From contig NZ_CP049199.1 in the NCBI RefSeq assembly GCF_011045195.1, forward strand, positions 3,596,001-3,660,000: 64,000 nucleotides of DNA, written 5' to 3'. Below are positions 330 through 19,451 of the stretch, one piece after another. Under the pieces are notes generated by a model that saw only the letters and a program-made list of their open reading frames with translations, was not told where the DNA came from and did not search any database. The position numbers and the translations under genes were made by a program. Source of the DNA: Caulobacter soli. Its GTDB lineage: Bacteria; Pseudomonadota; Alphaproteobacteria; Caulobacterales; Caulobacteraceae. How positions within the stretch are numbered: position 1 is the first letter of the stretch; the number at the start of each line of letters is the position of its first letter.

Positions 330-3300
330 ATGTCCCTGATCGAACCTCGTCGCGCGTCCTCCTCCCGGACGAAAGTGGAGTTATGGACAACGATCGGGCT
401 GGCGCTCGTGCTCGCCTTCTTTCTGGTCAGCGGGGTCACGGCCTATCGCAACATCGAGGTGCTGCGCAGCGACAGCGAAAAGATCTGGCACACGCACGAG
501 GTGCTGATCTCGCTGGACGAGCTCCTCTCCACCACCCAGGACGCCGAGACCGGCCAGCGCGGCTACCTGCTGACCGGCAATGATCGCTACCTGGAACCCT
601 ATCAGCGCGCGGTCACAGCCGCCGCGTCGCGCGTCGAGACCGTCGCCTCGCTGACCAAGGACAACCCGGTGCAGCAGGCCAATATCGGCCCGCTCAAGCG
701 ACACCTGGACGCCAAGCTCGGCGAGTTGGCGGAAACCATCGCCTTGCGACGCGACCAGGGCGCTCAAGCCGCGCTGGCCGTCGTCGCCACCGACCGCGGC
801 AAGGTCGAGATGGACGCGATCCGCACCCAGCTCGAGGTCATGCGCCAGGAGGAAAACCGCCTGCGCGACATCCGCCTGGCCGAGATGGACGCCGCCTACA
901 AGTCAGCCCTGACCAGCGGCGTGCTGTCGGGCCTGCTCGGCGCGGCCCTGACGATCGCGGTGTTCGTCCTGATCCGTCGCAGCACCCAGGCTCGCGCTCG
1001 CGAGGAATGGCTGCAATCGGGCCAGGTCGGCCTGTCGGTCGCGATGATGGGCGACAAGTCGGTCGAGGAACTGAGCGACAGCATCCTGGCCTTCCTGGCG
1101 CAGTATCTGGGCTTCCAGGCCGGCGCGCTGTTCAAGGGTGAAAAGGGTCACTTCCACCGCGCCGCGGCCCTGGGCATTCCGGCCGACGCCGACGTGACCG
1201 TCCGCTTCGACCTCAAGGAAGGCTTGCTGGGCAAGGCCGCGGCCGACGGGCTGGCGACGATCATCCGCGACGTGCCCGACGGCTACCTGACGATCGGCTC
1301 GGGCCTGGGCCGCGACAAGCCAAGGCACCTGGTCATCGTCCCGACCCATGCCGACGATCTGGTCAACGCCGTGATCGAGCTGGGCTTCCTGCATCCCGTC
1401 GACGATCTGGTTCTCGACCTGCTGAACCAGGCCTCGGCCTCGATCGGCATCGCCCTGCGCTCGGCGCGCTATCGGTCCGAACTGCAGGACGTACTGGAGG
1501 AAACCCAGCGCCAGGCCGAAGAACTGCAGGTGCAGAGCGAAGAGCTGCGGGTCTCCAACGAGGAGTTGGAGGAGCAAGGCCGGGCGCTCAAGGAGTCGCA
1601 GACGCGGCTTGAGCAGCAGCAGGTCGAGCTGGAGCAGACCAACAGCCAGTTGGAAGAGCAGGCCCAGACCCTGGAGACCCAGCGCGACGAGCTGGAGAAA
1701 ACCGGCGCCGCCGTGGCCCTGAAGGCGCGCGAACTGGAGCAGGCCAGCCAGTACAAATCCGACTTCCTGGCCAACATGTCCCACGAGCTGCGCACGCCGC
1801 TCAATTCGCTGCTGATCCTGTCCAAGCTGCTGGGCGACAATCCGGACGGCAACCTTTCGGGCGAGCAGGTCAAGTTCGCCCAGACCATTCAGTCGTCGGG
1901 CAATGACCTGCTGACCCTGATCAACGACATCCTCGACCTGTCGAAGATCGAGGCGGGCCACATCGAGGTTCGCCCCGAGAGCGTTCCGCTGCAGCGACTG
2001 ACGGGCGACCTCCGCCAGCTGTTCCAGCCGGTGGCCGACGAACGCAACCTGGATTTCGAGATTGTCGTCGCGGAAAACTGCCCGGCTCTGGTCGAAACCG
2101 ATCGCCAGCGCCTGGAGCAGATCCTCAAGAACCTGCTGTCGAACGCCTTCAAGTTCACCGAGAGCGGCGGCGTTCGCCTGGCCGTCACGCCGGCCGCCAA
2201 CGACAGCCTGGCCTTCGCCGTCACCGACACCGGCATCGGCATCCCGCGCGAAAAGCAGGAAAGCATCTTCGAGGCCTTCCGCCAGGCCGACGGCACCATC
2301 AGCCGCAAGTACGGCGGCACAGGCCTTGGCCTGTCGATCTCGCGCGAGCTGTCGCGTCTGCTGGGCGGGGCGATCACGCTGCGGAGCCAGGCCGGCGAAG
2401 GCAGCACCTTCACCGTCACCGTGCCGCGCACCTACGACCCGGCGCGCGTGGGCCCTCGCGAACAATCGTCTCCCATCGACGCTGCGCCCTCCCCGACGCC
2501 GGCACGCGCGAAGCGGTCAAAGCCCGCGCCCACCCTGGTCGAGGACGATCGCGACAAGCTGACCGGCGGCCGCCGTGTGCTGCTGGTCATCGAGGACGAC
2601 GACAAGTTCGCCAGCATCGTGCGTGACCTCTCCCACGAGCTGGGCTTCGAATGCCTGGTGGCCGGCACCGCCGAGGACGCCCTCAAGCTGGCCCGGAAGT
2701 TCAAGCCCAGCGCCGTGGTGCTGGACGTGGGCCTGCCGGATGAATCGGGCCTGATGGTCCTGGACCGCCTCAAGCGCGACGACACCACCCGGCACATCCC
2801 GATCCACGTCATCTCGGCCGCCGACCACAGCCAGACCGCCCTGTCGCTGGGCGCGATCGGCTACATGATCAAGCCGGTCAAGCGCGACGACCTGGCCGAG
2901 GTGCTCAAGACGCTGCAGTCGAAACTGACCAGCACGGTGCGGCGGGTCCTGATCGTGGAGGACGACGAGGTCCAGCGCGACGCCGTCGGCAAGCTGCTGT
3001 CCTCGGGCGACGTCGAGACGGTCGGCGTCGGCACGGCGGCCGAATGTCTGGAGCAGCTCAAGCAGCAGACCTTCGACTGCATGGTCCTGGACCTGTCGCT
3101 GCCGGACGCCTCGGGCTTCTCCCTGCTGGAGACGCTCAGCCAGGACGGTGATCACGCCTTCCCGCCGGTCATCGTCTACACCGGCCACGACCTGTCGGCG
3201 GACGACGAGCAGCGGCTGCGCCGCTATTCCAGCTCGATCATCATCAAGGGCGCCAAGTCTCCCGAGCGCCTGCTGGACGAGGTCTCGCTGTTCCTGCACC

Positions 3301-3758
3301 AGGTGGTGTCGGAACTACCGCCCGAGCAGCAGAAGATGATCCAGAAGGCGCGCAATCGCGACGCCGTCCTGGAGGGCCGGCGCGTGCTGATCGTCGAAGA
3401 CGACATCCGCAACGTCTATTCCCTGACCAACGTGCTGGAGCCGCGCGGCGCCGTCATCGAGATCGCCCGCAACGGCCGCGAAGCGATCGAGGCCCTGGCC
3501 CGCTCGGCCGAGGATCCGTCGCGCGCCGTCGACCTGGTGTTGATGGACGTGATGATGCCGGTCATGGACGGCCTGGCGGCGACGCGCGAGATCCGCGACG
3601 ATCCCAAGTGGTCCAAGCTGCCGATCCTGATGCTGACGGCCAAGGCCATGCCCGACGACCAGGAGCGCTGTCTCGCCGCCGGCGCCAGCGACTACATGGC
3701 CAAACCCATCGACGTGGACAAGCTGCTCTCGCTCGTCCGGGTCTGGATGCCCAGGTAG
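330..3758 (+). CDS. Hybrid histidine kinase, CHASE3-GAF-HisKA-HATPase with three receivers
   Basis: Membrane sensor kinase of 1142 residues. An N-terminal membrane segment (about 20-40) and a second one (about 200-222) bracket a CHASE3-type extracytoplasmic helical domain containing the typical QRGYLLTG motif. A GAF-like domain follows (about 235-380), then a long Glu/Gln-rich coiled coil (about 385-470). The HisKA H-box MSHELRTPLNS places the phosphorylated histidine near residue 485, and the N and G boxes of the ATPase follow. Three receiver domains close the protein, with acceptor aspartates near 799, 921 and 1073; only the first and third have a standard KP-type end. The gene is followed after 9 bases by cheR, then cheB and a receiver-kinase, so it probably shares their transcript. 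The ligand cannot be read from sequence. Confidence 0.93.
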   Translation: MSLIEPRRASSSRTKVELWTTIGLALVLAFFLVSGVTAYRNIEVLRSDSEKIWHTHEVLISLDELLSTTQDAETGQRGYLLTGNDRYLEPYQRAVTAAASRVETVASLTKDNPVQQANIGPLKRHLDAKLGELAETIALRRDQGAQAALAVVATDRGKVEMDAIRTQLEVMRQEENRLRDIRLAEMDAAYKSALTSGVLSGLLGAALTIAVFVLIRRSTQARAREEWLQSGQVGLSVAMMGDKSVEELSDSILAFLAQYLGFQAGALFKGEKGHFHRAAALGIPADADVTVRFDLKEGLLGKAAADGLATIIRDVPDGYLTIGSGLGRDKPRHLVIVPTHADDLVNAVIELGFLHPVDDLVLDLLNQASASIGIALRSARYRSELQDVLEETQRQAEELQVQSEELRVSNEELEEQGRALKESQTRLEQQQVELEQTNSQLEEQAQTLETQRDELEKTGAAVALKARELEQASQYKSDFLANMSHELRTPLNSLLILSKLLGDNPDGNLSGEQVKFAQTIQSSGNDLLTLINDILDLSKIEAGHIEVRPESVPLQRLTGDLRQLFQPVADERNLDFEIVVAENCPALVETDRQRLEQILKNLLSNAFKFTESGGVRLAVTPAANDSLAFAVTDTGIGIPREKQESIFEAFRQADGTISRKYGGTGLGLSISRELSRLLGGAITLRSQAGEGSTFTVTVPRTYDPARVGPREQSSPIDAAPSPTPARAKRSKPAPTLVEDDRDKLTGGRRVLLVIEDDDKFASIVRDLSHELGFECLVAGTAEDALKLARKFKPSAVVLDVGLPDESGLMVLDRLKRDDTTRHIPIHVISAADHSQTALSLGAIGYMIKPVKRDDLAEVLKTLQSKLTSTVRRVLIVEDDEVQRDAVGKLLSSGDVETVGVGTAAECLEQLKQQTFDCMVLDLSLPDASGFSLLETLSQDGDHAFPPVIVYTGHDLSADDEQRLRRYSSSIIIKGAKSPERLLDEVSLFLHQVVSELPPEQQKMIQKARNRDAVLEGRRVLIVEDDIRNVYSLTNVLEPRGAVIEIARNGREAIEALARSAEDPSRAVDLVLMDVMMPVMDGLAATREIRDDPKWSKLPILMLTAKAMPDDQERCLAAGASDYMAKPIDVDKLLSLVRVWMPR

Positions 3759-3767
3759 GCATGATCC

Positions 3768-4592
3768 GTGTCCGAGAAGATTGAAGACCTCGAGATCCAG
3801 CTCCTTCTGGAGGCGCTCTTCCAGCGCTACCACTATGACTTCCGCCACTATGCGCGGGCGTCGATCAAACGACGCCTGATCCAGGCGCGCGACCAGCTGG
3901 GCTTCGCCAGCATCTCGGCGTTGCAGGATCGCGTCCTGCACGACCCGGCCATGCTGCCGCGCCTGCTCGACTATCTGACCGTGCAGGTCAGCGAGATGTT
4001 CCGCGACCCGACCTACTTCCGGGCGCTGCGGGAAAAGGTGCTGCCGCACCTGCGGACCTATCCGTCCCTGAAGGTGTGGATCGCCGGCAGCAGCGCCGGC
4101 GAGGAGCTCTACTCGCTGGCCATCCTGTTTCGCGAGGAAGGCCTCTACGATCGGACGCTGTTCTATGCGACCGACATCAATCCCGAGGCCCTGAGGGCCG
4201 CCGAGGCCGGCGCCTATCCGATCGACCGGATCCGGAAGTTCACCGAGAACCACCAGAAGTCCGGTGGCCGCTCGTCGCTGTCGGACTACTACACGGCCGC
4301 CTACGGCCGGGCGGTGTTCGACAAGACCTTGCGCGACCGCGTGGTGTTCTCGGACCACAGCCTGGTGACCGACGCCGTCTTCGCCGAGATGCACCTGATC
4401 TCGTGCCGCAACGTGATGATCTATTTCGATCGGGCGCTGCAGGACCGGGCCATCGGCCTGTTCCGCGACTCCCTGGCCCGCAAGGGGTTCCTGGGCCTGG
4501 GCTCGAAGGAGAGCCTGCGCTTCTCGGCCCACGCCACGGGCTTCTCCGACTTCGTGCCGGAAGAGAAGATCTATCAAAGGCGCGAGCTGTGA
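3768..4592 (+). CDS. cheR: CheR-type protein-glutamate methyltransferase
   Basis: Uses S-adenosylmethionine to methylate glutamates on chemoreceptor-like proteins. The 274-residue product has the CheR N-terminal helical domain (residues 8-65) and the SAM-binding domain with WIAGSSAGEELYSLAI, then the family sequence LISCRNVMIYFD. It begins at GTG nine bases after the hybrid kinase stop; no ATG lies nearby in this frame. It overlaps cheB by four bases (GTGA). It has no VWRPW-type tethering partner next door, and the neighbours are kinases rather than MCPs, so its substrate may be a kinase-linked or non-standard receptor. That last point is inference. Confidence 0.92.
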   Translation: MSEKIEDLEIQLLLEALFQRYHYDFRHYARASIKRRLIQARDQLGFASISALQDRVLHDPAMLPRLLDYLTVQVSEMFRDPTYFRALREKVLPHLRTYPSLKVWIAGSSAGEELYSLAILFREEGLYDRTLFYATDINPEALRAAEAGAYPIDRIRKFTENHQKSGGRSSLSDYYTAAYGRAVFDKTLRDRVVFSDHSLVTDAVFAEMHLISCRNVMIYFDRALQDRAIGLFRDSLARKGFLGLGSKESLRFSAHATGFSDFVPEEKIYQRREL

Positions 4593-5164
4593 GCCGGCGC
4601 CCCATCAAGGCGGTGGCGATCGGCGCCTCGGCCGGCGCGGTCCAGGCGCTGCAGGCCATCCTGCCGCGCCTGCCCGTCGGCTATCCCCTCCCCGTGGTGG
4701 TGGTCGTGCACGTGCCCTCGGACCGTTCCAACGTCCTGCTGCCGCTGTTCCAGGCCAAGTGCCGGATCACGGTCAAGGAGGCCGAGGACAAGGAGCCCGT
4801 GGTCGGCGGCGTGATCTATTTCGCGCCCTCGGACTATCACGTGCTCATCGAGGCGGACGGCGCCTTCGCCCTGTCGTCCGACGAGGCGGTGAACTATTCC
4901 CGCCCCTCCATCGACGTCCTGTTCGAGAGCGCCGCCGACGCCTATGGCCCAGGCCTGGTCGGCGTCATCCTGACCGGCGCCAACCACGACGGCGCGGCCG
5001 GTCTCAAGGCGATCGTCGACGCCGGTGGCATGGCGATCGTCGAGAACCCCGTCGGGGCCTATGCGTCGGCCATGCCCGAAGCGGCGATCGAGGCCAGTTC
5101 GGCCGCCACCATCATGAACCTGGATGCGATCGCATCATACTTGTCGAGTTTGGGGACCGCATGA
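4589..5164 (+). CDS. cheB: CheB-type methylesterase, catalytic domain only
   Basis: A 191-residue protein matching only the CheB methylesterase domain. The catalytic serine lies in GASAG, the histidine in VVHVPSDRS and the aspartate in LTGANHDGA. The receiver domain and linker found in ordinary CheB (about 350 residues) are absent, so activity cannot be controlled by phosphorylation in cis. The GTG start overlaps the cheR stop (GTGA) and its own stop overlaps the next start (ATGA), which implies coupled translation. The open frame extends further upstream, but that part lies inside cheR and has no domain. The neighbouring receiver-kinase could supply regulation in trans (inference). Confidence 0.9.
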   Translation: MSRRPIKAVAIGASAGAVQALQAILPRLPVGYPLPVVVVVHVPSDRSNVLLPLFQAKCRITVKEAEDKEPVVGGVIYFAPSDYHVLIEADGAFALSSDEAVNYSRPSIDVLFESAADAYGPGLVGVILTGANHDGAAGLKAIVDAGGMAIVENPVGAYASAMPEAAIEASSAATIMNLDAIASYLSSLGTA

Positions 5165-6321
5165 TGATCGCGGAAAAGCCGATCAACTTCCTCCTCGTCG
5201 ATGACCTCGAAGAGAACCTGCTGGCGCTCGAGGCGCTGCTGCAGCGGGAGGGTCTGACCTGTCTGAAGGCGCGGTCCGGCGAGGAAGCGCTCGAGCTGCT
5301 GCTGATGCACGACGTCGCGCTGGCGCTGCTCGACGTCCAGATGCCCGGCATGAACGGCTTCGAACTGGCCGAGTTCATGCGCGGCAACGTCCGCACCAGC
5401 CGCGTGCCGATCATCTTCGTGACCGCCGGCGCCTCCAGCAACCAGCGCCGCTTCCGAGGCTACGAGGCCGGCGCGGTCGACTTCATCCAGAAGCCGATCG
5501 AAGCCCACGTGCTGCGCAGCAAGGCCAACGTGTTCTTCGACCTGTACAAGCAGCGCCAGCAGCTCGAACTTCAGCGCGACGAGCTGGAAGCCGCGGCCCA
5601 GGCCCTGCGGCGGGCCGATCGCCACAAGGACAGCTTCCTGGCGGTGCTGGCCCACGAACTGCGCAACCCCGTCGCGGCGCTGAGCGGCGGCCTGCACCTG
5701 CTGGGCAAGGACATCCCGCCGGAACGCGCCAGCGACATCCGCACGCGCATGGACCGGATGCTGACCCACCTCTCGCACCTGGTCGACGACCTGCTCGACG
5801 TTTCGCGGGTCAACCAGGGCAAGATCTCGCTGAAGAAGGAGCGGCTCGACCTGGGCGAAATCCTTCGCTCGGCGATCGAGGCCAGCCAGCACAATATCGA
5901 CGCCGGCGGCCACCAGTTCACGATCCAGATTCCCGACGAGGCGATCTGGCTGGACGCCGATCACACCCGCCTGGCCCAGGTCGTGTCCAACCTGCTCAAC
6001 AACGCGGCCAAGTACACGCCGTCGGGCGGCCAGGTCTCGCTGTCGGTGACGACCCACGGCGACGCGGCGGTGATCACGGTCTCGGACACCGGCGTCGGCA
6101 TCCCGCCGGAGATGCAGTCGGGCATCTTCGAGATCTTCGCCCAGGTCGAGGACCACCTGACCAAGGCCCAGGGCGGCCTTGGCATCGGACTGGCCCTGGT
6201 CAAGCAACTGGTCGCGCTGCACGGCGGTTCGATCGAGGTGGAAAGCGCGGGCCAGGACATGGGCAGCACCTTCAGCGTCAGGATCCCCATCGCCGACCAG
6301 CCTGGCCAGGACGCCGCTTAA
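5161..6321 (+). CDS. Receiver-histidine kinase (REC-HisKA-HATPase)
   Basis: Cytoplasmic 386-residue protein with a receiver at the N terminus (phospho-acceptor D58, closing IQKP near 109-112), a short coiled coil (125-155), the H-box LAHELRNPVAAL (H165), and an ATPase domain with N box NLLNNAAKYTP and G box GGLGIGLAL. No membrane segment is present. The order receiver first, kinase second differs from the usual hybrid kinase and suggests that the kinase is gated by phosphorylation of its own receiver, for example by phosphate from the large hybrid kinase at 330. The ATG overlaps the cheB stop. The upstream extension of the frame lies inside cheB and is rejected. Confidence 0.92.
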   Translation: MMIAEKPINFLLVDDLEENLLALEALLQREGLTCLKARSGEEALELLLMHDVALALLDVQMPGMNGFELAEFMRGNVRTSRVPIIFVTAGASSNQRRFRGYEAGAVDFIQKPIEAHVLRSKANVFFDLYKQRQQLELQRDELEAAAQALRRADRHKDSFLAVLAHELRNPVAALSGGLHLLGKDIPPERASDIRTRMDRMLTHLSHLVDDLLDVSRVNQGKISLKKERLDLGEILRSAIEASQHNIDAGGHQFTIQIPDEAIWLDADHTRLAQVVSNLLNNAAKYTPSGGQVSLSVTTHGDAAVITVSDTGVGIPPEMQSGIFEIFAQVEDHLTKAQGGLGIGLALVKQLVALHGGSIEVESAGQDMGSTFSVRIPIADQPGQDAA

Positions 6322-8422: not shown

Positions 8423-10195
8423 ATGGCCTTAGCGTCTTCCTCCGCGGCTTTCGCGACGCCCTACCAGGCCTCCTCCCAGGCTGGTGGCGGCGCGCGGATC
8501 GGCGCGCGCCTCGAAGCCGCCCGTCAGGTGGTGGAAACCCGCTTTCTCGAAGCCGGCGACGTGCTGTCGCGCGCCGTCGACGGCGTCGGCTCGCTGATCG
8601 CCGCCCTGGACGCCATCCGCGCCAATCTCGACGCCGAGACCGTCGCCGCGACCACCGGCGAACTGGTCCAGGCGGCCGAAACCCTGAAATCCCTGCCCGA
8701 CAGCCTGGACGCCCGCCGCGACCGCGTGGGCGAACTGGTCAAGTTCAGCGACGGCCTGGGCGGCCGCATCGGCGAGATGCGCCAGCACCTGGCCTATCTC
8801 CGGGTCTTCGCGATCAACATCAAGATCACCTCCGGCGGCATCGCCGCGGCCGGCCCCGAATTCGCGATCTTCGCCCAGGAGATCTACGACTGCATCGAGA
8901 TGGGCGGCGCCCAGCTGGACGCGCTGAACAACGACCTGATGGGTCTGGACCACACCCTGCGCGGCGCCCTGGCGCATGAGCAGACCCTGGCCAAGAACTG
9001 CGCCACCCTGCTGCCGGCCGTGCCCGACGCCCTGACGGCCAGCGCGGCCGCCATCGCCGATCATCACGCCCGCATCGCCAGCGTCGCCGTCACCGTCGCC
9101 GCCCTGGCGCGCGACGTCCAGAAGAAGGTCGGCGGCGGCCTGGCCGCCCTGCAGGTCGGCGACAGCACCCGCCAGCGGATCGAGCACGTGCAGGCCGGGC
9201 TGACGTTCCTGGACGAGGCGGGCGAGATCGCCGCCTTGCCGGCCGAACCGCGCGAGCGCGCCCACGCCTTCGTGCACCGCCTGCTGGGCGCTCAATTGGT
9301 CGCGATGGGCGAGGACTTCCATCGCGAGGTCGCCCGCATCAATGACAGCGTGATCGGCATGGCCGCCGACGCGACGGAACTGCTGCGCCTGCGCGACCTG
9401 GCTTCGGGCCAGGGCGACGGGACCGAGGCCAACTTCCTGCGCAATCTGGAAGGCAATGTCGGCCAGGCCCTGGGGCTGGTGGGCGACATGACCGCCGGCG
9501 AACGCGCCGCCGAAGAGGTCAGCCGCTCGGCCGCCGTCTCGGCCCGTGAACTGACCGAGCGCATCGCCGGCATCCAGAACATCCGCGCCGACGTGCAGAT
9601 GATGGCCCTGAACACCACGTTGAAGTGCGCCCGTATCGGCGAGACCGGCAAGCCGCTGGGCGTCATCGCCGTTGAACTGCGCGCCCACGCCATCCACCTG
9701 GAAAAGTCCGCCGCCGAGACCACCAGCTCGCTAGAAGGCCTGTTCAGCGCCGCCGAGGCCCTGGGCCAGCGCGACGTCAGCCATGACGGCGAGGACGGCA
9801 AGGCCGCGGCCGCCGCCACGGTGCTGAGCGGCGCCGTCGCCCGGATCGGCAAGGCCGGCGACGGGGTCGACAGCGCCCTGGACGCCGTGGCCCGCCAAGG
9901 CGCGGACGTCGTCGACATGCTGCGCCGCGCCGCCGAGCGCTGCGACCTCCACACCCAGATCGGCTCGGTGCTGGACGCCGCCGCCAACCAGCTTCTGGAC
10001 ATGGCGGGCGACGACGAAATCTTCGCCGACGACATCGCCCCGGCCCTGCACCCCCTGCTGGCCAAGCTGGCCAAGCAGTACACCATGGCCCGCGAGCGCG
10101 AGGTTCATCGCGCGTTGACCGAGGCTCTCGGCGAAGCGGTCGTGACCGAGGTCGTCGCGACGCCGGTCGCGGACGAGGACGACGTGCTGTTCTGA
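8423..10195 (+). CDS. Soluble MCP-like chemotaxis protein
   Basis: A 590-residue alpha-helical protein with no signal peptide or membrane segment. Residues about 380-440 (NIRADVQMMALN, then GETGKPLGVIAVEL) closely resemble the MCP hairpin tip that docks CheA and CheW. A second stretch near 115-175 (HLAYLRVFAINIK, then GPEFAIFAQEIYD) has the same pattern, so the protein may carry two tips by internal duplication. It lies just downstream of the PAS hybrid kinase and convergent to the che operon, which supports a role in chemosensory signalling. Function is inferred; it could also be a kinase-associated scaffold. The ATG has a poor ribosome site, so coupling to the upstream gene is likely. Confidence 0.75.
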   Translation: MALASSSAAFATPYQASSQAGGGARIGARLEAARQVVETRFLEAGDVLSRAVDGVGSLIAALDAIRANLDAETVAATTGELVQAAETLKSLPDSLDARRDRVGELVKFSDGLGGRIGEMRQHLAYLRVFAINIKITSGGIAAAGPEFAIFAQEIYDCIEMGGAQLDALNNDLMGLDHTLRGALAHEQTLAKNCATLLPAVPDALTASAAAIADHHARIASVAVTVAALARDVQKKVGGGLAALQVGDSTRQRIEHVQAGLTFLDEAGEIAALPAEPRERAHAFVHRLLGAQLVAMGEDFHREVARINDSVIGMAADATELLRLRDLASGQGDGTEANFLRNLEGNVGQALGLVGDMTAGERAAEEVSRSAAVSARELTERIAGIQNIRADVQMMALNTTLKCARIGETGKPLGVIAVELRAHAIHLEKSAAETTSSLEGLFSAAEALGQRDVSHDGEDGKAAAAATVLSGAVARIGKAGDGVDSALDAVARQGADVVDMLRRAAERCDLHTQIGSVLDAAANQLLDMAGDDEIFADDIAPALHPLLAKLAKQYTMAREREVHRALTEALGEAVVTEVVATPVADEDDVLF

Positions 10196-10224: not shown

Positions 10225-11340
10225 CTACCTGTTCGCCGCCCGCAGCACTTCGGTCGTCAGGTTGTGCAGCGGAACCACGCGGTCCACGCAGCCCAGGGCG
10301 ATGGCTTCCTTGGGCATGCCGAACACCACCGAGGTGGCCTCGTCCTGCGCCAGGGTGAAGGCGCCGGCCTGCTTCATTTCGGCCATGCCGCGCGCGCCGT
10401 CGTCGCCCATGCCGGTCATGATCACGCCCACCGCGTTCGAGCCCGCCGAACGGGTGGCCGAGCGGAACAGCACGTCGACCGACGGCCGGTGGCGCGAGAC
10501 CAGCGGACCGTCCTTGACCGAGACGTAGTAGCGGGCGCCGCTGCGCTCCAGCAGGGTGTGCTTGTTGCCGGGCGCGATCAGCACCCGGCCGCGCCGCACG
10601 GTGTCGCCGTCCTCGGCTTCCTTGACCTCGACCGCGCACAGCCCGTCCAGCCGCTTGGCGAACGAAGCGGTGAACTTCTCGGGCATGTGCTGGACGATGA
10701 CCATGCCCGGCGAGTCCGGCGGCAGGGCTTCCAGCAGGACCCGCAGGGCCTCGGTGCCGCCAGTCGAGGCGCCGACGCAGACGATGCTTTCGGTGGTGCG
10801 CGCCATGGCCCTAGCCGCCCCGCCCTTTGGCGCTGGCGGCGGCGGCAGCATGGCGTCGGCGGTCAGCTTCTTCTCCGGCTCGTGCGCCGGACGGGCGAAC
10901 TGGGGGACCGGCCGCTTGGACCCGGCCAGCTTGGCGCCGGCGGCGGCCTTCACCGCGTCGCAGATGCGGATCTTGGATTCCATCAGATGGTCGGCCACGC
11001 CCATCTTCGGCTTCAGAATGATGTCGACCGCCCCGGCCTCCAGGGCCTGCAGCAGGGTCTCCGACCCCGCCTCGGTCAGGGATGAGCACATCACCACCGG
11101 GATCGGCTTCTGGGCCATCAGCTTGCGCAGGAAGGTGATGCCGTCCATGCGCGGCATCTCGACGTCCAGCGTGATGACGTCGGGGATTTCCTCGGCGATC
11201 TTGCGGGCGGCGACGAACGGATCCGACGCCACGCCGATCACCTCGATCTGCGGATCGGACTCCAGCACCGCCGCCAGGGTCTGACGGACCGTCGCCGAGT
11301 CGTCGATGATCAGAACGCGGACTTTTCGGCCCAAGGGCAT
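10225..11340 (-). CDS. cheB: CheB chemotaxis response regulator methylesterase
   Basis: Full-length CheB of 371 residues. The receiver domain ([11 protein letters not shown], acceptor D59) is joined by a linker to the methylesterase domain. The catalytic residues are serine in GASTGG, histidine in IVQHMPEK and aspartate in MTGMGDDGA. It removes methyl groups from MCP glutamates once phosphorylated by CheA. It is the last gene of the leftward che operon, five bases after cheR. The ATG at 11340 starts exactly at the receiver domain; the open frame upstream overlaps cheR and is not used. Confidence 0.96.
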
Positions 11341-11345
11341 GGCGA

Positions 11346-12200
11346 CTACCGCTTCTGGAATACGGTGTTGGCGATCTGGACGACGGGCAAGTCGATGCCG
11401 ACGATGGATTCCGAATGGCCCAGGAACAGATACCCGCCAGGCGCCAGATGGTTGCACAGCCGGTTCAGAACCTTGGCCTGGGTGACCTTGTCGAAATAGA
11501 TCAGGATGTTGCGGCAGAAGATGATGTCGAGGTCGGTGTCGACCGGATAGGCCTCGTCCATCAGGTTCAGGCGGGCGAAGGCCAGCTTGGCGCGCAGGCG
11601 CGGCGTGATCCGGACCTGGCCGGTGCTGCGGTCCTTGGCGCGCATCACATAGCGCTGGCGGCGATCCATCGAGACCGGCTCGATCATCTGCTCGCTGAAG
11701 ATGCCCGCGACGGCCTGGTCCAGCACCTCGGTGCAGATGTCGGTGCACAGGACGGAATAGTCGACGCCCCGGCGCTTTTCACAGAACTCGTCCATGACCA
11801 TGGCGATGGTGTAGGGCTCCGCGCCCGTCGAGCAGGCCGAGCTCCAGATCTTGATCTCGCGCCGGCCGGCGGCCGCCAGGGCGGCCAGGCCCTTCTTGGC
11901 CATGAAGTCGAAATGGGCCGGCTCGCGGAAGAACTCGGTCTTGTTGGTGGTCACCGCGTCGATCAGGTGGATGACCTCGGCGGTCATGCCGTCGTCTTCG
12001 AACAGATACCGGCAGTAGTCATTAACGTTACCGATGCGCGTGGCTCGCATGCGGCGGCGCAGACGGCCCTCCAGCATGGTGCGCTTGTTGGCCGGCATCT
12101 TGATGCCGCTGTAGCCGTGGATGAACTCGGCCAGGCGGCGGAAGTTCTTTTCGCTCAGTTGTTCGGCCGGCGGAGGGGCCTGGAGAGCTTGAGTCGACAC
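11346..12200 (-). CDS. cheR: CheR chemotaxis methyltransferase
   Basis: A 284-residue CheR. Its N-terminal helical domain contains [20 protein letters not shown], and the SAM-binding domain contains [30 protein letters not shown] and the closing FLGHSES. It methylates glutamates of MCPs to set adaptation. It sits between cheW and cheB in the leftward operon and should act on the two membrane MCPs encoded at 12709-16237. The paralogue at 3768 is clearly divergent, so the two probably serve different receptors. Confidence 0.96.
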
Positions 12201-12223
12201 GAAGGTCCTTCCGTCCGGAACGT

Positions 12224-12709
12224 TTAGGCGGCTTGGGCGATGACAGCGACGTCCTGGCTGGTCAGCAGGCGCGGCAGGTCGAAGATCACGACGAAGCCGC
12301 CCTTGCCGGCGGCGTTATCCCGGCGCACCACGCCCTGGATGTAGTCCGAACGCCACGGCACGCCGATGTCCGGCGCGGTCTCGATCTGCTCGGCGGCCAC
12401 GGTGATCACTTCGATCACCCGGTCGGCGACCAGGCCCAGCGACAGCACGCGGTCGGCCAGCGGCACGTCCAGCACCAGCACTCGGGTGGCGATGGTCGGC
12501 TCGGCGCGCGGCAGGCCCAGCTTGATCCGCAGGTCGATGGTCGGGGTGCCCCTGCCCCGCACGTCGGTCAGGCCCAGCAGGTAGGCCGGTCCCTCAGGGA
12601 TGGCGAACGGCGCCTGGTAGTCGAGGATCTCGCGGACGAAGGCCACCGAGACGGCGAACACCTCGTCGCCGAGCGCCAGGGTGACATAGGCGGTTTCAGA
12701 TGTGGCCAT
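12224..12709 (-). CDS. cheW: CheW coupling protein
   Basis: A 161-residue single-domain CheW that links MCPs to CheA. It starts with the typical VTLALGDEVFAVSVAFVREIL and carries YLLGLTDVRGRGTPTIDLR in the second subdomain. The ATG shares one base with the MCP stop (TGATG), which suggests coupled translation; a GTG one codon upstream is possible. A second cheW is present in the same operon at 16257, and the two proteins are only moderately similar, so each may prefer a different receptor. Confidence 0.95.
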   Translation of the reverse strand: MATSETAYVTLALGDEVFAVSVAFVREILDYQAPFAIPEGPAYLLGLTDVRGRGTPTIDLRIKLGLPRAEPTIATRVLVLDVPLADRVLSLGLVADRVIEVITVAAEQIETAPDIGVPWRSDYIQGVVRRDNAAGKGGFVVIFDLPRLLTSQDVAVIAQAA

Positions 12710-14502
12710 CACGCATAGTCCCTGAAATCGGCGTCGGTGGCGTCGGGCCCGCCGTTGGTCAGGTCCAGAGCGAAACCGCTGACGCGAGCCTGCTGGGCCG
12801 CCACGGTGCGCGCCGGCGCGGCGGCCTTGCGGACCGTCGGCGCGGGCGAACGCTTGGCGGCGGCGCGAACCGCCGGCTTGCGAGCCGAACCGACGCTGTC
12901 GGTGCGGAAGTAGGCGATCGAGGTCTGAAGCTCCTCGGCCTGTGCGGCCAGTTCTTCCGAGGTCGCCGACATCTCCTCGGAGGCGCTGGCGTTCTGCTGG
13001 GTGACCTTGTCCAGTTGCTGGATCGCCTCGTTGATCTGCGAAGCGCCGATGTCCTGCTCGCGGCAGGCGGCGCTGATCTCGGCGACCAGTTCGGCGGTCT
13101 TGCGGATGTTGGGCACCAGGCTGGTCAGCATTTCGCCGGCCGACTGGGCGGCTTTCACCGTATCCGACGACACGGCGCCGATCTCGGTGGCGGCGGTCTG
13201 GCTGCGCTCGGCCAGCTTGCGGACTTCCGAAGCGACCACCGCGAAACCACGACCGTGCTCGCCGGCCCGGGCGGCTTCCACCGCCGCGTTCAGGGCCAGC
13301 AGGTCGGTCTGGCGGGCGATTTCCTGGACGATGGTGATCTTCTCGGCGATCGTCTGCATGGCGCTGACGGCGCGGTTGACCGCTTCACCCGAAACCTCGG
13401 CGTCCTTGGCCGACTGGCGGGCGATCTTCTCGGTCTGGGCGGCGTTGTCGGCGTTCTGCTTGATGTTGGCGGCCATCTCTTCCATCGAGGCCGAGGCCTC
13501 TTCGGCCGACGAGGCCTGCTCGGTGGCGCCTTGCGACACCTGCTCCGAGGCCGCCGACAGCTCCTGCGAGCCGGCCGAGACGTTCTCCGAGGCCGAGATG
13601 GCGTCGGCCACCACGCCCTGCAGGCGCTCCACCATCCGGGCCAGGGCCAGGCCCAGGGTGTCCTTGTCCGACAGCGGGGTGGGCTGCACCGTCAGGTCGC
13701 CGTCGGCGACGCGGTCGGCCAGGGCGGCGGTGGCGCGCAGATTGGCGGTCATGGTGTTGACGGTGTCGACCAGGTCCTTGATCTCGTCATTGCTGGTCAC
13801 CGTGACCTGCTGGTCGAGATCGCCAAGCGCCACGGCGCCGGCCAGGGCGGAGATCTTGCCCAGGCCCCGGCTGATGTTCAGCGAGATCCAGACGGCGGCG
13901 CCGGCGGCCACGAGCACGGCGACCAGCGATAGGCCGATCAGGATCGCCCGGATCCGGGCGTAGTCGGCGTCGGCCTTGTCGATCGAGGCCTGCAGTTGGT
14001 TCTCCGACAGTTCGACCAAGCCCTCGACGTGATCGCTGGTGTCGGCGACCAGCTGGTGCGACTCGCCGGCCGACAGCGCCTGGGCCTCGGCCTTGCGGCC
14101 TTGGTCGATCAGCTCGCGCAGGTGGTCGTCGACCGCCTGGAACCGCTCCCAGGTCCGGCCCAGGGCTTCCCACTTCGGCTTGCCCTCGACGGTGGCCTTT
14201 TCCTTGGTCTTGTTCAGCAGGTCCTCGAAGGCCTGCCGATCGTCGTCGATCTTGGTCTCCAGCGCCTTGGACTGCTCGCCGGACTCCGCCGCCATCAAAC
14301 TCTTTTCCGACCGCACGATGTCCAGCAGGTGGATGTTGAGCTGCTGGGCGGCCTTCAGGCGCGCGGTGGGACCCGACACCAGCGCGTTCATCTCGCTGTT
14401 GGACGTCGCCAGGGCGTTGATGCCGAACAGCGATGTGCCGGCCAGCAGGAGGATCAGACCTCCGAAGGCCAGGGCGAGTTTCAGTTTGATGGTCAGGCGC
14501 AC
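12709..14502 (-). CDS. Methyl-accepting chemotaxis protein, double HAMP
   Basis: Membrane chemoreceptor of 597 residues. A short cytoplasmic start, TM1 (about 10-32), a four-helix periplasmic sensor domain of the 4HB type (35-185) and TM2 (about 188-210) are followed by two consecutive HAMP-like segments (about 210-310), then the signalling domain with tip [20 protein letters not shown]. The C-terminal tail is an Ala/Pro/Arg-rich linker ending in DFRDYA, with no NWETF-type CheR tether. The signalling half is almost identical at DNA level to the next MCP gene, while the sensor halves differ. It lies between MCP 14555 and cheW. Confidence 0.95.
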
Positions 14503-14554
14503 GGTGGTCGCTCCGAAGGAGACTTAAGGGTGGTCAGGTCGAGGAACGCCGTCC

Positions 14555-16237
14555 TCAGGCATAGTCGCGGAAGTCGGCGTCGGCGGCGTCGGGGCCGCCA
14601 TTGGTCAGGTCCAGGGCGAAGCCGCTGACGCGGGCCTGCTGGGCGGCCACGGTCGAACGGGCCGGCGCGGCGACCTTGCGGGCGACCGGAGCTGGGGCGC
14701 GCTTGGGGGCCGCGGCGCGAACCGGCTTGCGCGCGGCGCCGCCGGAGGCGTCGGTGCGGAAGTAGGCGATCGAGGTCTGCAGCTCCTCGGCCTGGGCCGC
14801 CAGTTCCTCGGAGGTCGCCGACATCTCTTCCGAGGCGCTGGCGTTCTGCTGGGTGACCTTGTCCAGTTGCTGGATGGCTTCGTTGATCTGCGAAGCGCCG
14901 ATGTCCTGTTCGCGGCAGGCGGCGCTGATCTCGGCCACCAGTTCGGCGGTCTTGCGGATGTTGGGCACCAGGCTGGTCAGCATCTCGCCGGCCGACTGGG
15001 CGGCCTTGACGGTGTCGGTGGAGACCGCGCCGATTTCGGTGGCGGCGGTTTGCGACCGCTCGGCCAGCTTGCGGACTTCCGAGGCGACCACCGCGAAGCC
15101 TCGGCCGTGCTCGCCGGCCCGGGCCGCTTCGACGGCCGCGTTCAGGGCCAGCAGATCGGTCTGGCGCGCGATTTCCTGGACGATGGTGATCTTCTCGGCG
15201 ATCGTCTGCATGGCGCTGACGGCGCGATTGACCGCTTCACCCGAAACCTCGGCGTCCTTGGCCGACTGGCGGGCGATCTTCTCGGTCTGGGCGGCGTTGT
15301 CGGCGTTCTGCTTGATGTTGGCGGCCATTTCTTCCATCGAGGCCGAGGCCTCTTCGGCCGACGAGGCCTGCTCGGTGGCGCCTTGCGACACCTGCTCCGA
15401 GGCCGCCGACAGCTCCTGCGAGCCGGCCGAGACGTTCTCCGAGGCCGAGATGGCGTCGGCCACCACGCCCTGCAGGCGCTCGATCATGATGTTCACGTGA
15501 CCCAGCAGGTCGCCGATCTCGTCGCGGGTGGTGATGGCGACCGTCTTGGTCAGATCGCCGTCGGCCACGGTCTGCACGGCGTCGGACGCGCGCTTGAGGC
15601 CTTTGCTGACCGTCATGGAGATGTAGACGGCGGCGCCGGCCGCCATCAGCAGCGAGACGACGGTCAGACCCAGCATCCAGTTGCGGACGTCGGCGAAGTC
15701 GGCGTCGGCCTTGTCGGTGGCGGCGTCCATCTGGGCCTTCGACAGGTCGACCAGTTCCTGCACCTGGGCGCTGGCCTCGGTCACCGCCTTGCGGCCGTCG
15801 CCCATCGACAGGGCGGCCGCTTCGGCGTCGTGGTTCTCGATGGCCAGGTCATAGACCCGCTCGTGCACCTCGATCATCCGATCCCAGGCCGCGCCCAGCG
15901 ACTGCCACTTGGGCTTGCCTTCGGCCGTGGACAGGCTCTCGGCCTTGGTCAGCAGGGCCTGGAAAGCAGCCTGCTCCTTGTTGATCGTCGTCTCGTAGGA
16001 CTTCACATCTTCGACCGAGTTGACCAGCACCATGTTCTTCTCGGCCCGCACCACGTTGAGCATGTGGATGTTGAGCTGCTGGGCGGCGGCCAGGCGAACG
16101 GCGGGGCCGTCGACCATCGCGTTCATGTCGCGATTGGTCGATCCCAGGCTGGTGATCCCGAAGGACGTGACAACCAGCAGGAGCGCGATGATCAGGCCGA
16201 AAGCCAGACCCAGTTGCAGTTTGATCGTGAAACGCAT
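14555..16237 (-). CDS. Methyl-accepting chemotaxis protein, single HAMP
   Basis: Membrane chemoreceptor of 560 residues with TM1 (about 8-30), a four-helix periplasmic domain with conserved [21 protein letters not shown]2 (about 190-210), one HAMP domain and the methyl-accepting signalling domain with tip [20 protein letters not shown]. The end (DFRDYA) is the same as in the downstream MCP. It follows cheW by 19 bases and precedes the paralogue by 52 bases. The pair arose by duplication; a stretch of roughly 290 bases around the tip differs at only about two positions, which points to recent gene conversion. Confidence 0.95.
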
Positions 16238-16256
16238 GGGAAGGTCTCCGGCGCGG

Positions 16257-16784
16257 TCAGCGTTGCGAGGCGGTGATGGGGGTGATCGAGGCCGACGAGC
16301 GGCCCTTGGCGGCGAAAATCTGTTCGAGGTCGGGGATGACGATCAGGTCGCCCCCGCGCCGCGCGAGGCGGCGGATGAAGTCCTGGCGCCAGCTCATGCC
16401 GACGCGCGGGGCGTCTTCGGTGGTGTCGTGAGTGATCGAGGTGACCTCGTGCACCTTGTCGGCTCGCAGGCCGATCAGCGTGGGCTCGCCGTCCAGTTCG
16501 TGCTCGATGACCACGATGCGGCTGTCGATGGTGGGCGCGGCGGCGTCCATGTCGAAAGCCAGGCGCAGGTCGACCAGCGGCACGACCCGGCCGCGGAAAT
16601 TGATCACCGCCCCGACGAAGGGCGCCGAGCCGGGCACGACGGTTTCGGGCAGCAGGTCCAGGACCTCGCGCACCATTCCCGCCTCGAGGGCGAAGGTCTC
16701 GCCCTGCAGGTCGAAGGTCAGGGCTTCGATCGCGGCTTCGGCTTCGATGCTCGAGGCCTGAATGCTCATGGATTGCGTGCTCAT
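16257..16784 (-). CDS. cheW: CheW coupling protein
   Basis: CheW-family adaptor of 175 residues with a short extra N-terminal tail before the domain (about residue 18 onward). Family sequences visible are [21 protein letters not shown] and [19 protein letters not shown]. Its ATG shares one base with the cheA stop (TGATG). It probably couples CheA to the first MCP of the operon, which follows 19 bases on. It is longer at the N terminus than the second CheW at 12224. Confidence 0.95.
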
Positions 16785-18766
16785 CAGCTGGCCGCCCGCA
16801 GTTGGGCGTCGGACCGTTGGCCGGCGGCGACGAGATGGGCGATGTCGAGGATCAGGGCGACGCCGCCGTCGCCCAGGATGGTCGCGCCCGAAAAGGTCCC
16901 GACATCGGCGTGGAAGCTCGACAGCGGCTTGATGACGGTCTGGTGGTCGCCGAGGATCTGGTCGACGACCAGGCCCACCCGCTCCTGCCCGACCGCGACC
17001 ACCACCACCTTCTGGTGCGGATCGGGGGCCAGGCCCGTGGCGAACAACGAACGCAGGCGGATGAAGGGCACCAGTTGATCACGCAGGGTGATCAGGCTGC
17101 GACCGGTCGAGCGCATGTCCTGCTCGACCGACAGCTCGACGCATTCCTCGACGGCCGACAGCGGGATGACGTAGCGACCGGTCCCGACCCGCACCAGCAG
17201 GCCGTCGATGATCGCCAGGGTCAGGGGGATGCGCAGCGAGACCACCGAGCCTTCGCCCGGCGTGCTGGACAGTTCGATCGAACCGCGCAGACCTTCGATG
17301 GTGCGCTTGACCACGTCCATGCCGACGCCGCGACCCGACAGGTTGGTGATCGCCGCCGCGGTCGAGAAGCCGGGGGCGAAGATCAGTTGCAGCAGGTCGC
17401 TGTCGCTCAGCACCTGGCCGGGCTGGATCAGGCCGTTCTCCTCGGCCTTGGCGCGGACCCGGGCGCGGTCGACGCCACGGCCGTCGTCGGTGATGGTGAT
17501 CACCACCTCGGCGCCGGACTGGCGGGCGGCCAGGACGATGTTGCCGGTCGCGGACTTGCCGGCGGCCAGGCGCTGTTCGGGGGTTTCAAGGCCGTGGTCG
17601 GCGGAATTGCGGATCAGGTGGATCAGCGGATCGGCCAGGCGCTCGATCACCGTCTTGTCCAGCTCGGTGGCCTCGCCCTCGGTCGACAGCTCGATGGTCT
17701 TGCCGGTGTCGCGAGCCAGGTCATGGATCAGGCGGCGGAAGCGGCCGAACAGCTGGGCGATTGGCACCATGCGCACGACCATCATGGTGTCGCGCATTTC
17801 CGAAGCCAGGCGCTCGATCTCCTCGGCGACGGCGCGCAGGGCGATATCGCTGCTGGAAGCGGCCAGTTGCTTGAGGCGCGACTGGGCGATGACCAGTTCG
17901 CCCACGCGGTCCATCATCTCGTCGAGGCGCTCGGCCGGCACGCGGACGGTGTCGCCCCCGGCCTTGCGACCTTCGCCGGCGGCGGGGGCCTCGTCCTTGG
18001 CCGGAGCGGCGATCGGGGCGGCGGCGCTCGGCGCGGCTTCGACGACGGCCTTCTCGACAACGGCGGCTTCGACCGAAGCCTCGCCGACCGCCTGGATGTC
18101 CAGGGTCATGTCGTCGATCACGAAGATGAAGACGTCCTCGATCGCGTCGCGGCCATGCTTGGTGACCAGGGTCACGTCCCAGGCCAGGTGGCACTCGCTG
18201 GCGACCAGGATGTCGAAATCGGGGATGTTGTCGGTGACGGCGGTCACCTGGCAGTCGCCCAGCTCGCGCAGCTCGTCCAGCAGCGGCAGCGGCCGGGTGC
18301 CGTTGACCAGGGCGTCGGCCGGCAGGCTGAACCGCACGCGCCAGGTGTTGAGGTCGGGCTCGGCGGCGGCGACCTCGGCGGACGAGGCCTGGCCGGCGCT
18401 TTCGACGACACGGTGCAGTTCGGCCAGGAGCATTTCGCCGGTCGCTTCCGACGCGGCGCCCCCCTCGGCCAGGGCGCGCATGTGGTCCTGACAGGCCAGG
18501 ACGGCGCCGACCAACTCGGAGGTGGCGGCGACCTCGCCCTTGCGGACGCGGTCGAAGGCGGTTTCGCAGTGGTGGGTGAAGGCGGCCAGGGCGTCAAAAC
18601 CGAACATGGCCCCAGACCCTTTCAGGGTGTGGAGCCCGCGGAACACCGCATCGACCAGATCCCGGTCGCCCGGACGATGAGCCAGATCGAGCAGGCCCTG
18701 CTCGATCTCCTCGAACAGCTCCTGGGCTTCCTGGCGGAAGATCTCGACGGGATCCTGGCCGCTCAT
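16784..18766 (-). CDS. cheA: CheA chemotaxis histidine kinase
   Basis: A 660-residue CheA. The P1 Hpt domain has the phosphorylated histidine in FRGLHTLKGSGAMFG (H46). A P2-like region (about 165-265) is followed by an Ala/Pro/Glu-rich linker, then P3 dimerisation (KAGGDTVRVPAERLDEMM onward), the P4 kinase domain (HLIRNSADHGLE, ITDDGRGVD, GRGVGMDVV) and the P5 CheW-like domain. It phosphorylates the CheY upstream and the CheB downstream. The ATG overlaps the cheY stop (ATGA); the longer open frame upstream lies inside cheY and is discarded. Confidence 0.96.
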   Translation of the reverse strand: MSGQDPVEIFRQEAQELFEEIEQGLLDLAHRPGDRDLVDAVFRGLHTLKGSGAMFGFDALAAFTHHCETAFDRVRKGEVAATSELVGAVLACQDHMRALAEGGAASEATGEMLLAELHRVVESAGQASSAEVAAAEPDLNTWRVRFSLPADALVNGTRPLPLLDELRELGDCQVTAVTDNIPDFDILVASECHLAWDVTLVTKHGRDAIEDVFIFVIDDMTLDIQAVGEASVEAAVVEKAVVEAAPSAAAPIAAPAKDEAPAAGEGRKAGGDTVRVPAERLDEMMDRVGELVIAQSRLKQLAASSSDIALRAVAEEIERLASEMRDTMMVVRMVPIAQLFGRFRRLIHDLARDTGKTIELSTEGEATELDKTVIERLADPLIHLIRNSADHGLETPEQRLAAGKSATGNIVLAARQSGAEVVITITDDGRGVDRARVRAKAEENGLIQPGQVLSDSDLLQLIFAPGFSTAAAITNLSGRGVGMDVVKRTIEGLRGSIELSSTPGEGSVVSLRIPLTLAIIDGLLVRVGTGRYVIPLSAVEECVELSVEQDMRSTGRSLITLRDQLVPFIRLRSLFATGLAPDPHQKVVVVAVGQERVGLVVDQILGDHQTVIKPLSSFHADVGTFSGATILGDGGVALILDIAHLVAAGQRSDAQLRAAS

Positions 18767-19128
18767 TTGGCCAGGACCTTCTTGACGACCCGTACCAGTT
18801 GCTCGGGATCGAAGGGCTTGGTCAGCCAGCCGGTCGCGCCGGCGGCCTTGGCCTGGGCCTTGATCTCGGCGTCGGATTCCGTGGTCAGGAACAGGATCGG
18901 CACGCCCGCGCCGGCCGGTCGCTGGCGCAGTTCGCGGATCATCTGCAGTCCGTCCATGACCGGCATGTTCAGGTCGGTGACGATCAGGTCGAAGCCGCCG
19001 GCCGAACCCTTGTCCAGGCCGTCCTGGCCGTTCACCGCCTCGGTGACGGCGTAGCCTTCGCCGCTCAGGGCGATCTTGATCGCCTGACGGATGCTGGCGG
19101 AATCGTCGACGGTGAGGATCGAAGTCAT
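18763..19128 (-). CDS. cheY: CheY-like response regulator
   Basis: Single-domain receiver of 121 residues with the acidic pair D8/D9, the phospho-acceptor D52 (VTDLNMPVMDG), the switch threonine in LFLTTES and K104 in WLTKPF. It has no output domain, as expected for CheY. It overlaps the STAS gene before it and cheA after it, each by ATGA, so all three are translationally coupled. It is the likely phosphate acceptor of the CheA in this operon; whether its target is the flagellar motor or another effector is not visible. Confidence 0.95.
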   Translation of the reverse strand: MTSILTVDDSASIRQAIKIALSGEGYAVTEAVNGQDGLDKGSAGGFDLIVTDLNMPVMDGLQMIRELRQRPAGAGVPILFLTTESDAEIKAQAKAAGATGWLTKPFDPEQLVRVVKKVLAK

Positions 19129-19451
19129 TGGGCGGCCCCTTGCAGCCAGAACTGCGCACGCTGGGAGTTTTCGTTGTCGAGGAAGCCGCCGCGTCGCAGC
19201 ACTTCCAGTACTGCGCCGTCGGCGGGGTGACGCAGAGTAAGGTCACGCCCAGTCTCGGCCGCCTTCCGACGAGCGGACTCAAGCAACTGAACGAAGGTCA
19301 GGTCGATTTCGGCCACGCCATCGATGTCCACGACGACAGGACCGTCCTGTCGCAGGGCGGCTCCCAGCTCTTCGTGAGCTTGAACAATATTGGAAACCGT
19401 CAGATCACCGACAAAGGTGATCAGGTTGTGTTCGACGCCTGCCAATAACAT
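19125..19451 (-). CDS. STAS-domain protein heading the che operon
   Basis: A 108-residue single STAS domain, the fold of anti-sigma-factor antagonists. The pattern VVVDIDGVAEIDLTFVQLLE matches the loop region, but the residue where SpoIIAA-type proteins have a phosphorylatable serine reads D-L-T, leaving threonine as the only candidate. It is the first gene of the leftward operon and overlaps cheY by ATGA, so it is made together with the chemosensory proteins. A comparable STAS gene placed before cheY and cheA is known from a few chemosensory clusters; its job here is inferred to be regulatory or structural. Confidence 0.85.
   Translation of the reverse strand: MLLAGVEHNLITFVGDLTVSNIVQAHEELGAALRQDGPVVVDIDGVAEIDLTFVQLLESARRKAAETGRDLTLRHPADGAVLEVLRRGGFLDNENSQRAQFWLQGAAQ

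Follow-up and report, generated by a model that had tools for sequence, protein, structure and literature searches.

A four-gene kinase-CheR-CheB unit in Caulobacter soli and a glutamate-pair ladder as its predicted methylation target

The four genes of the unit

The stretch of DNA analysed here, called the window throughout, comprises 64,000 nucleotides of the two-contig, 5.68 Mb genome of Caulobacter soli and starts at C1:3596001. Near its beginning lies a unit in which open reading frames (ORFs) and domain calls place, in order on one strand, a hybrid histidine kinase, a CheR-type methyltransferase, a CheB-type methylesterase lacking a receiver, and a kinase that begins with a receiver (REC). 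All four genes were found at the positions and in the order given by the original prediction, which had proposed that CheR and CheB act on the coiled coil of the hybrid kinase. The domain calls place no methyl-accepting chemotaxis protein (MCP), CheA or CheW inside the unit.

The first gene (330..3758, + strand) was identified by domain search as encoding a transmembrane hybrid histidine kinase of 1142 amino acids with the architecture CHASE3-GAF-coil-HisKA-HATPase-3xREC. CHASE3 covers residues 49-184, GAF (a domain absent from the original prediction) 243-376, HisKA 476-543 and HATPase 591-700, followed by the three receivers; by motif, the phospho-acceptor is His485. The signaling-helix coiled coil was located at about residues 383-470 (1476..1739, +), in agreement with the long coil predicted at about 385-470. 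Within it, residues 397-413 (1518..1568, +) form what we call the EE-Leu ladder, three Glu pairs (397/398, 404/405 and 411/412) that each precede a core Leu and are predicted to be methylation sites.

The second gene (3768..4592, +) has a GTG start and encodes a CheR-type protein-glutamate methyltransferase of 274 amino acids, with CheR_N and CheR domains, the latter binding S-adenosylmethionine, and with the GEExY motif present. Its best match in the PDB is 5ftw, followed by 5xly and others, and 1bc5/1af7 come last of six. The beta-subdomain loop region, where Salmonella CheR has an insertion that marks pentapeptide dependence, aligns with gaps. The third gene (4589..5164, +) encodes a CheB-type methylesterase consisting of the methylesterase domain only, and its Ser, His and Asp positions, which we take to be the catalytic triad, align with the solved CheB 1chd. 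The fourth gene (5161..6321, +) encodes a REC-HisKA-HATPase kinase of 386 amino acids, likely the receiver-bearing output of the unit. The GTG start of CheB overlaps the CheR stop (GTGA) and the ATG of the last kinase overlaps the CheB stop (ATGATGA), so that the coupling by overlapping stops and starts claimed earlier holds at two of the three junctions; at the remaining one, a gap of 9 nucleotides separates the hybrid kinase stop (3756-3758) from the CheR start (3768).

Linkage to a kinase and relation to chemoreceptors

The association of this CheR with a kinase is conserved beyond what chance would give. With CheR as the query, the best 80 of 184 relatives were taken as close loci, which extend no more than about 8 kb to either side of CheR and in some cases less. 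In 79 of the 80, the gene immediately before CheR encodes a tandem-receiver kinase, and the exception (L036) is a contig that begins 146 nucleotides before CheR. CheB is near CheR in all 80; within this reach, none of them showed an MCP, CheA or CheW. At every close locus CheR is the best conserved of the four proteins by identity, the loci having been picked by CheR. With a cut-off of E 1e-45, a CheR of this kind occurs in 8 of 389 genomes from the class and 74 of 396 from the phylum to which the window belongs (its own genome is counted in both), and the nearest named relatives of the window's CheR are from Caulobacter.

Distant loci numbered 68, eight from the class sample and 60 chosen by hand from 87 places listed. 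The kinase is directly upstream of CheR in 57 of them; in seven (L132, L133, L149-L153) a fused CheB-CheR gene is found instead, and L120, L123, L145 and L147 show other arrangements, with a receiver-HD protein preceding CheR in L123. Simple hydropathy gives two transmembrane-like segments in 75 of 77 close kinases, the window's included, and at least two in 63 of 67 distant linked kinases. The survey thus bears out the conserved adjacency that the original prediction had suggested looking for and excludes its contrary, that related genomes lack the linkage.

Downstream of CheR, a receiver-bearing gene was found within 2.5 kb in 65 of the 68 distant loci (not in L092, L140 and L144), and the outputs of the gene after CheR/CheB vary between HisKA, HWE, HisKA_3 and GGDEF-EAL. 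GGDEF-EAL or HD receiver proteins stand beside unit CheRs at L118:6373-8208 and L123:6816-7988, pointing to cyclic di-GMP outputs. A PP2C output was considered for the CheB-less loci L086, L101 and L113 and rejected, the genes there encoding REC-PAS-HWE kinases.

The unit is also carried on plasmids. A CheR at E 1e-40 or better occurs on 82 PLSDB plasmid records, of which 31 are typed as conjugative and 9 as mobilizable. A kinase-size response-regulator, HAMP-domain or hybrid-kinase gene lies directly upstream of CheR in all nine annotated plasmid regions that were read, CheB is annotated in five of the nine, and all four unit genes are present on pSWIT01. The unit is real, widespread and portable. 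On three sphingomonad plasmids typed as conjugative (L183, L185, L186), the unit lies shortly downstream of htpG/Hsp90, hinting at a role in stress. On plasmid pTK1 (L182:8977-11474), the next annotated gene after CheR is an IS3 transposase, at the place expected for CheB.

CheB is near CheR in 46 of the 68 distant loci and fused to it in a further seven; the 22 loci in which no nearby CheB was found include these seven and two in which CheB lies 1.8 kb off. Such loci would fit a scheme in which CheR alone methylates the kinase, essentially irreversibly, with CheB acting elsewhere or only in Gln deamidation. RsbM of Bacillus cereus would be its model, being described as an orphan methyltransferase with no esterase partner (PMC4574943). 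We consider this scheme unlikely, since CheB is present at every close locus, the catalytic positions of the window's CheB align with a solved CheB, and seven distant loci go as far as fusing CheB to CheR.

The absence of an MCP from the unit, which the original prediction emphasized, is literally true, yet a classical che cluster (10225..19282, - strand), comprising REC-CheB, CheR, CheW, two 4HB-HAMP MCPs, CheW and CheA, lies outside the unit on the opposite strand. It is conceivable that CheR and CheB of the unit act on ordinary MCPs, for example these two, and that adjacency to the kinase only couples expression. The two MCPs, about 8 kb off, share the ladder with the kinase, and a PF00015 search of 50, 8 and 70 carrier genomes (127 distinct, as G038 was run twice) found MCPs in 124 of the 127. 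Against this stand several observations. The che cluster owns a CheR and a REC-CheB; within the 8 kb or less covered on each side, the 80 close loci showed neither MCP nor CheA or CheW, and among the distant loci 8 of 68 contain an MCP and none CheA or CheW. Moreover, five places in this genome exceed the Pfam cut-off for CheR, and unit CheRs form one branch apart from the genome's four others (support 100/99) in a tree whose sequences were picked by similarity and whose long branches were flagged.

Three carriers, finally, have no MCP in this search: Phyllobacterium pellucidum BT25 (G038, locus L069), G293 (95% complete) and G670 (100% complete). No CheW-like domain was found in any of the three, and no CheA dimer domain in G038. 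G038 has a single strong CheR, that of the unit, and a second match of 24.6 bits; G293 carries two units and two CheB-CheR-PAS fusions, and G670 one of each. One unit kinase of each of these genomes has a three-step ladder, and the kinase of the second unit in G293 (L091) has two steps. Because there is neither MCP nor CheW domain, an MCP cannot be the CheR substrate in these genomes, and this speaks for a unit CheR independent of MCPs, at least in these three carriers. Methylation of ordinary MCPs only, the other outcome that the original prediction had named against itself, is excluded there by gene content, not by chemistry. We therefore regard action on ordinary MCPs alone as having a small chance of being correct, slightly below that of irreversible methylation.

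The EE-Leu ladder in the signaling helix

By ladder we mean that, in one heptad after another, a core Leu (or Ile, Met, Val) has an EE pair immediately in front of it. Such a series, two heptads long or longer, was found in 131 of the 142 nearest kinases of the CheR loci, the window's included. These are one kinase per locus, seven of 149 having been dropped for want of a kinase or an H-box pattern; L015 and L047 are counted among the 142, though listed with other kinases when counting by ORF. The count by ORF, which took all those in CheR loci that have two or three receivers at their end, gave at least two steps in 131 and at least three in 98 of 148. Among unlinked relatives the ladder of at least two heptads occurs in 5 of 39, namely in 0 of 19 HAMP-array kinases and 5 of 20 further GAF-coil kinases. 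These controls came from 19 of 20 HAMP-array loci (L161 is without an H-box pattern) and 20 GAF-coil loci, 18 found by coil and two by the whole protein. No CheR was seen in the 40 control loci, several of which are short or end with the contig (e.g. L155, L260 and L262), so that a CheR may lie farther on. The comparison of 131/142 with 5/39 gives a very small Fisher p, which describes and is not a probability, as the sequences are related. In L270:1-7701, a receiver gene comes next after a CHASE3-GAF-kinase-3xREC gene with a two-step ladder, without a CheR in between; CheR and CheB may have been lost from what was once a unit.

Outside these kinases, the ladder turned up in two of another 103 HisKA kinases, each a split copy of the unit's own, and in 1 of 6025 other ORFs, a GAF-kinase-receiver protein adjoining a unit (L118). 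A sample of this genome made up of the window and 59 evenly spaced stretches of 20 kb (1.244 Mb together) contains 852 genes, of which three have it, the unit kinase and the two window MCPs; how many of the 852 are MCPs was not counted. Five of eight MCP ORFs carry the ladder, two of them the window's, in a group found by similarity to the window MCPs, and we do not claim it for MCPs in general. In the window MCPs it lies near the C-terminal end with 7-residue spacing, a stretch that we take to be the methylation helix. The two MCPs (12709-14502 and 14555-16237) are identical over the ladder stretch. The ladder is also found between CheR and PAS in all three CheB-CheR-PAS fusions of G293 and G670. 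A ladder of two steps is present in two Deinococcus plasmid kinases of HAMP type that lie next to a CheR, and their 19 CheR-free relatives have no ladder.

Two other features of the coil were tried and set aside. Richness in Glu and Gln, from which the original prediction had argued, does not separate linked from unlinked kinases (the two make up 38% of coil residues in the linked kinases of distant loci versus 36% in 19 unlinked ones, p 0.33) and was rejected as a discriminator. Ungapped conservation of exposed coil positions was dropped, as its direction changes with overall kinase identity: it is 0.73 and 0.79 in linked versus 0.47 and 0.59 in unlinked kinases at 65-75% identity, 0.84 versus 0.83 at 75-80%, and 0.31 and 0.34 versus 0.41 and 0.42 at 50-65%.

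That the CheRs paired with these kinases are active enzymes is suggested by their motifs. The hand-typed and strict patterns GEExY and CRN are both found in 130 of 149 unit CheRs; 15 lack GEExY only, one lacks CRN only and three (L140, L150, L152) lack both. The kinases of these three are without a ladder, the one at L140 being of the HAMP-array type and its CheR a poor Pfam match (L140:8198-10417). These observations bear on the possibility that the ladder is a coiled-coil or receiver-docking trait of the kinase lineage and that CheR and CheB are non-catalytic scaffolds. Shared descent of the kinases, the five of 39 unlinked kinases that keep the ladder and the seven fused-gene loci that have none would be in keeping with it; motif retention, the pairing of the pattern-less CheRs with ladder-less kinases, and the recurrence of the ladder in MCPs and CheB-CheR-PAS fusions speak against it, and we find it improbable.

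The methyl acceptor could also be another partner, either the receiver-first kinase of the unit or an MCP-like protein encoded nearby on the same strand. The latter (8423..10195, +), outside the conserved unit, has 590 amino acids and a weak MCP signalling domain (24.3 bits, cut-off 34.6). The ladder is present in neither protein. The gene after CheR/CheB is variable in output, and no receiver gene is there in 3 of the 68 distant loci; a relative of the MCP-like gene occurs in only 1 of 80 close loci, for which reason it was rejected as a conserved partner. A different acceptor thus seems very improbable. Relatives of the MCP-like protein, at about 30% identity, occur on 15 plasmid records, mostly of rhizobia. 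The gene before it (6371-8407) encodes a PAS-HK-REC hybrid kinase (HK, histidine kinase) whose receiver match ends at 78 of 111 positions, and its frame seems to change near its end.

Proposed adaptation module and known systems

We argue that the signaling helix of the hybrid kinase is the most likely substrate of CheR, and we think it fairly probable that the unit is a complete sensory module in itself, equipped for adaptation by methylation. Its membrane kinase would sense by CHASE3 outside and by GAF inside. CheR would methylate Glu residues of the ladder, within the signaling helix that joins GAF to HisKA, the likeliest acceptors being E398, E405 and E412 or their pair partners. CheB would strip the methyl groups, so that the charge state of the helix could set the activity of the kinase, and phosphate would then run through the kinase receivers and on to the REC-kinase at the end of the unit. 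The direction in which methylation shifts activity and the order of the phosphorelay belong to this prediction just as the substrate does. Action of CheR and CheB on the kinase coil, as originally predicted, is thus supported by linkage, the MCP-free carriers, the ladder and the RsbK/RsbM precedent, whereas the argument from Glu/Gln richness fails.

For this precedent, the source reports that the CheR-type RsbM of B. cereus methylates the S-helix of RsbK and represses sigma-B, gives H505 as the RsbK phospho-acceptor, and cites 127 RsbK-like kinases in 10 phyla (PMC4574943). Counted back from H485 in the window, the second Glu residues of the three pairs are 87, 80 and 73 residues away. The methylation sites of RsbK are reportedly E439 and E446, according to Chen et al. 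2012, which would place them 66 and 59 residues ahead of H505. With these sites, all five positions are 3 modulo 7 and, given a continuous helix, would share the same heptad phase.

Several points weigh against the ladder as substrate of a reversible CheR/CheB pair, apart from the MCPs found in most carriers. The ladder is absent from 11 of the 142 linked kinases, including those of all seven fused-gene loci, a point that tells against both the module and the wider proposal made below. Five unlinked kinases carry it (L251, L261, L265, L269 and L270, one of them with three steps), and their genomes hold CheRs elsewhere; L269 shares the coil type and has two steps; the 7.7 kb covered there contain no CheR, and its genome has two other CheRs. 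Heptad-class shuffling of the window coil alone yields three steps in 397 of 20000 trials. The ladder was spotted only after inspecting the sequences, the kinases are mutually related, and the classical MCP site consensus has no match in the kinase. In the B. cereus work, deletion of the sole CheB left sigma-B unaffected (data not shown there; PMC4574943). For P. putida, mutants in the other cfc genes are said to keep the crinkle phenotype (unpublished there; PMC4951495), so that CheR and CheB would be at most modulatory in that assay. We found no methylation data for any CheR+CheB unit in the literature. Nor did we find a report of reversible kinase methylation by CheR and CheB, though our coverage of the subscription literature is thin and this absence is weak evidence.

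If the proposed module is correct, a two-component sensor would possess its own chemotaxis-type memory loop without chemotaxis. The ladder names residues that can be tested (E397/398, E404/405 and E411/412), for which the MCP-free carriers offer clean backgrounds. It would also bear on the targets of non-chemotaxis CheR/CheB pairs, a question that arises from the cfc work (PMC4951495). More tentatively, and with somewhat less than even confidence, we suggest that the EE-Leu ladder may be a portable CheR substrate element, shared by the methylation helix of one MCP class, the signaling helix of linked kinases and the coils of CheB-CheR-PAS fusions. Glutamate-methylation adaptation may then be a general, plasmid-mobile add-on to transmembrane histidine kinases, reversible wherever CheB accompanies it, and found in organisms that possibly lack chemotaxis altogether.

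Compared with classical chemotaxis adaptation, the unit uses the same enzyme families, and the EE ladder also occurs in the window MCPs, but CheB lacks a receiver, the unit has no MCP, CheW or CheA, and the presumed substrate is a kinase. The HAMP-array kinases (L154-L173) resemble the window's in their GAF-coil-HK-3xREC architecture, mostly with a receiver-bearing gene next door; they differ in that CheR is found in 0 of 20 loci (some short), 18 of 19 are free of transmembrane segments and 0 of 19 have a ladder. The RsbK-RsbM-RsbY system shares CHASE3, GAF, S-helix, kinase and receiver in an operon with a methyltransferase (PMC4574943). RsbK is described with HAMP and one receiver, no CheB, and RsbY as PP2C output, whereas the window has three receivers, CheB and a REC-kinase; its unit is thus not an RsbK-M-Y system proper, with REC-PP2C output and no CheB.

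The Pseudomonas putida cfcABCDE genes and the BmsA locus are, by description, like the window in having a CHASE3/GAF hybrid kinase with CheR, CheB and a gene for a receiver protein or a kinase beside it (PMC4951495, PMC8175716). In cfcABCDE these are a CHASE3/GAF kinase, CheR, CheB and a receiver protein, and a chemotaxis role of CfcB/CfcC is said there, citing another paper, to be ruled out; CfcA is needed for the diguanylate cyclase CfcR (PMC4951495). At the BmsA locus, CheR, CheB and a hybrid kinase lie beside the bmsA orthologue (PMC8175716). The window has both the arrangement of kinase-CheR modules, a CHASE3/GAF hybrid kinase with receivers followed directly by CheR, and the cfcABCD-type order, with CheB and a receiver protein after CheR. 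The arrangement and the methylation concept are already known from these systems; our added predictions are a form that CheB can reverse and the ladder as the feature that marks it.

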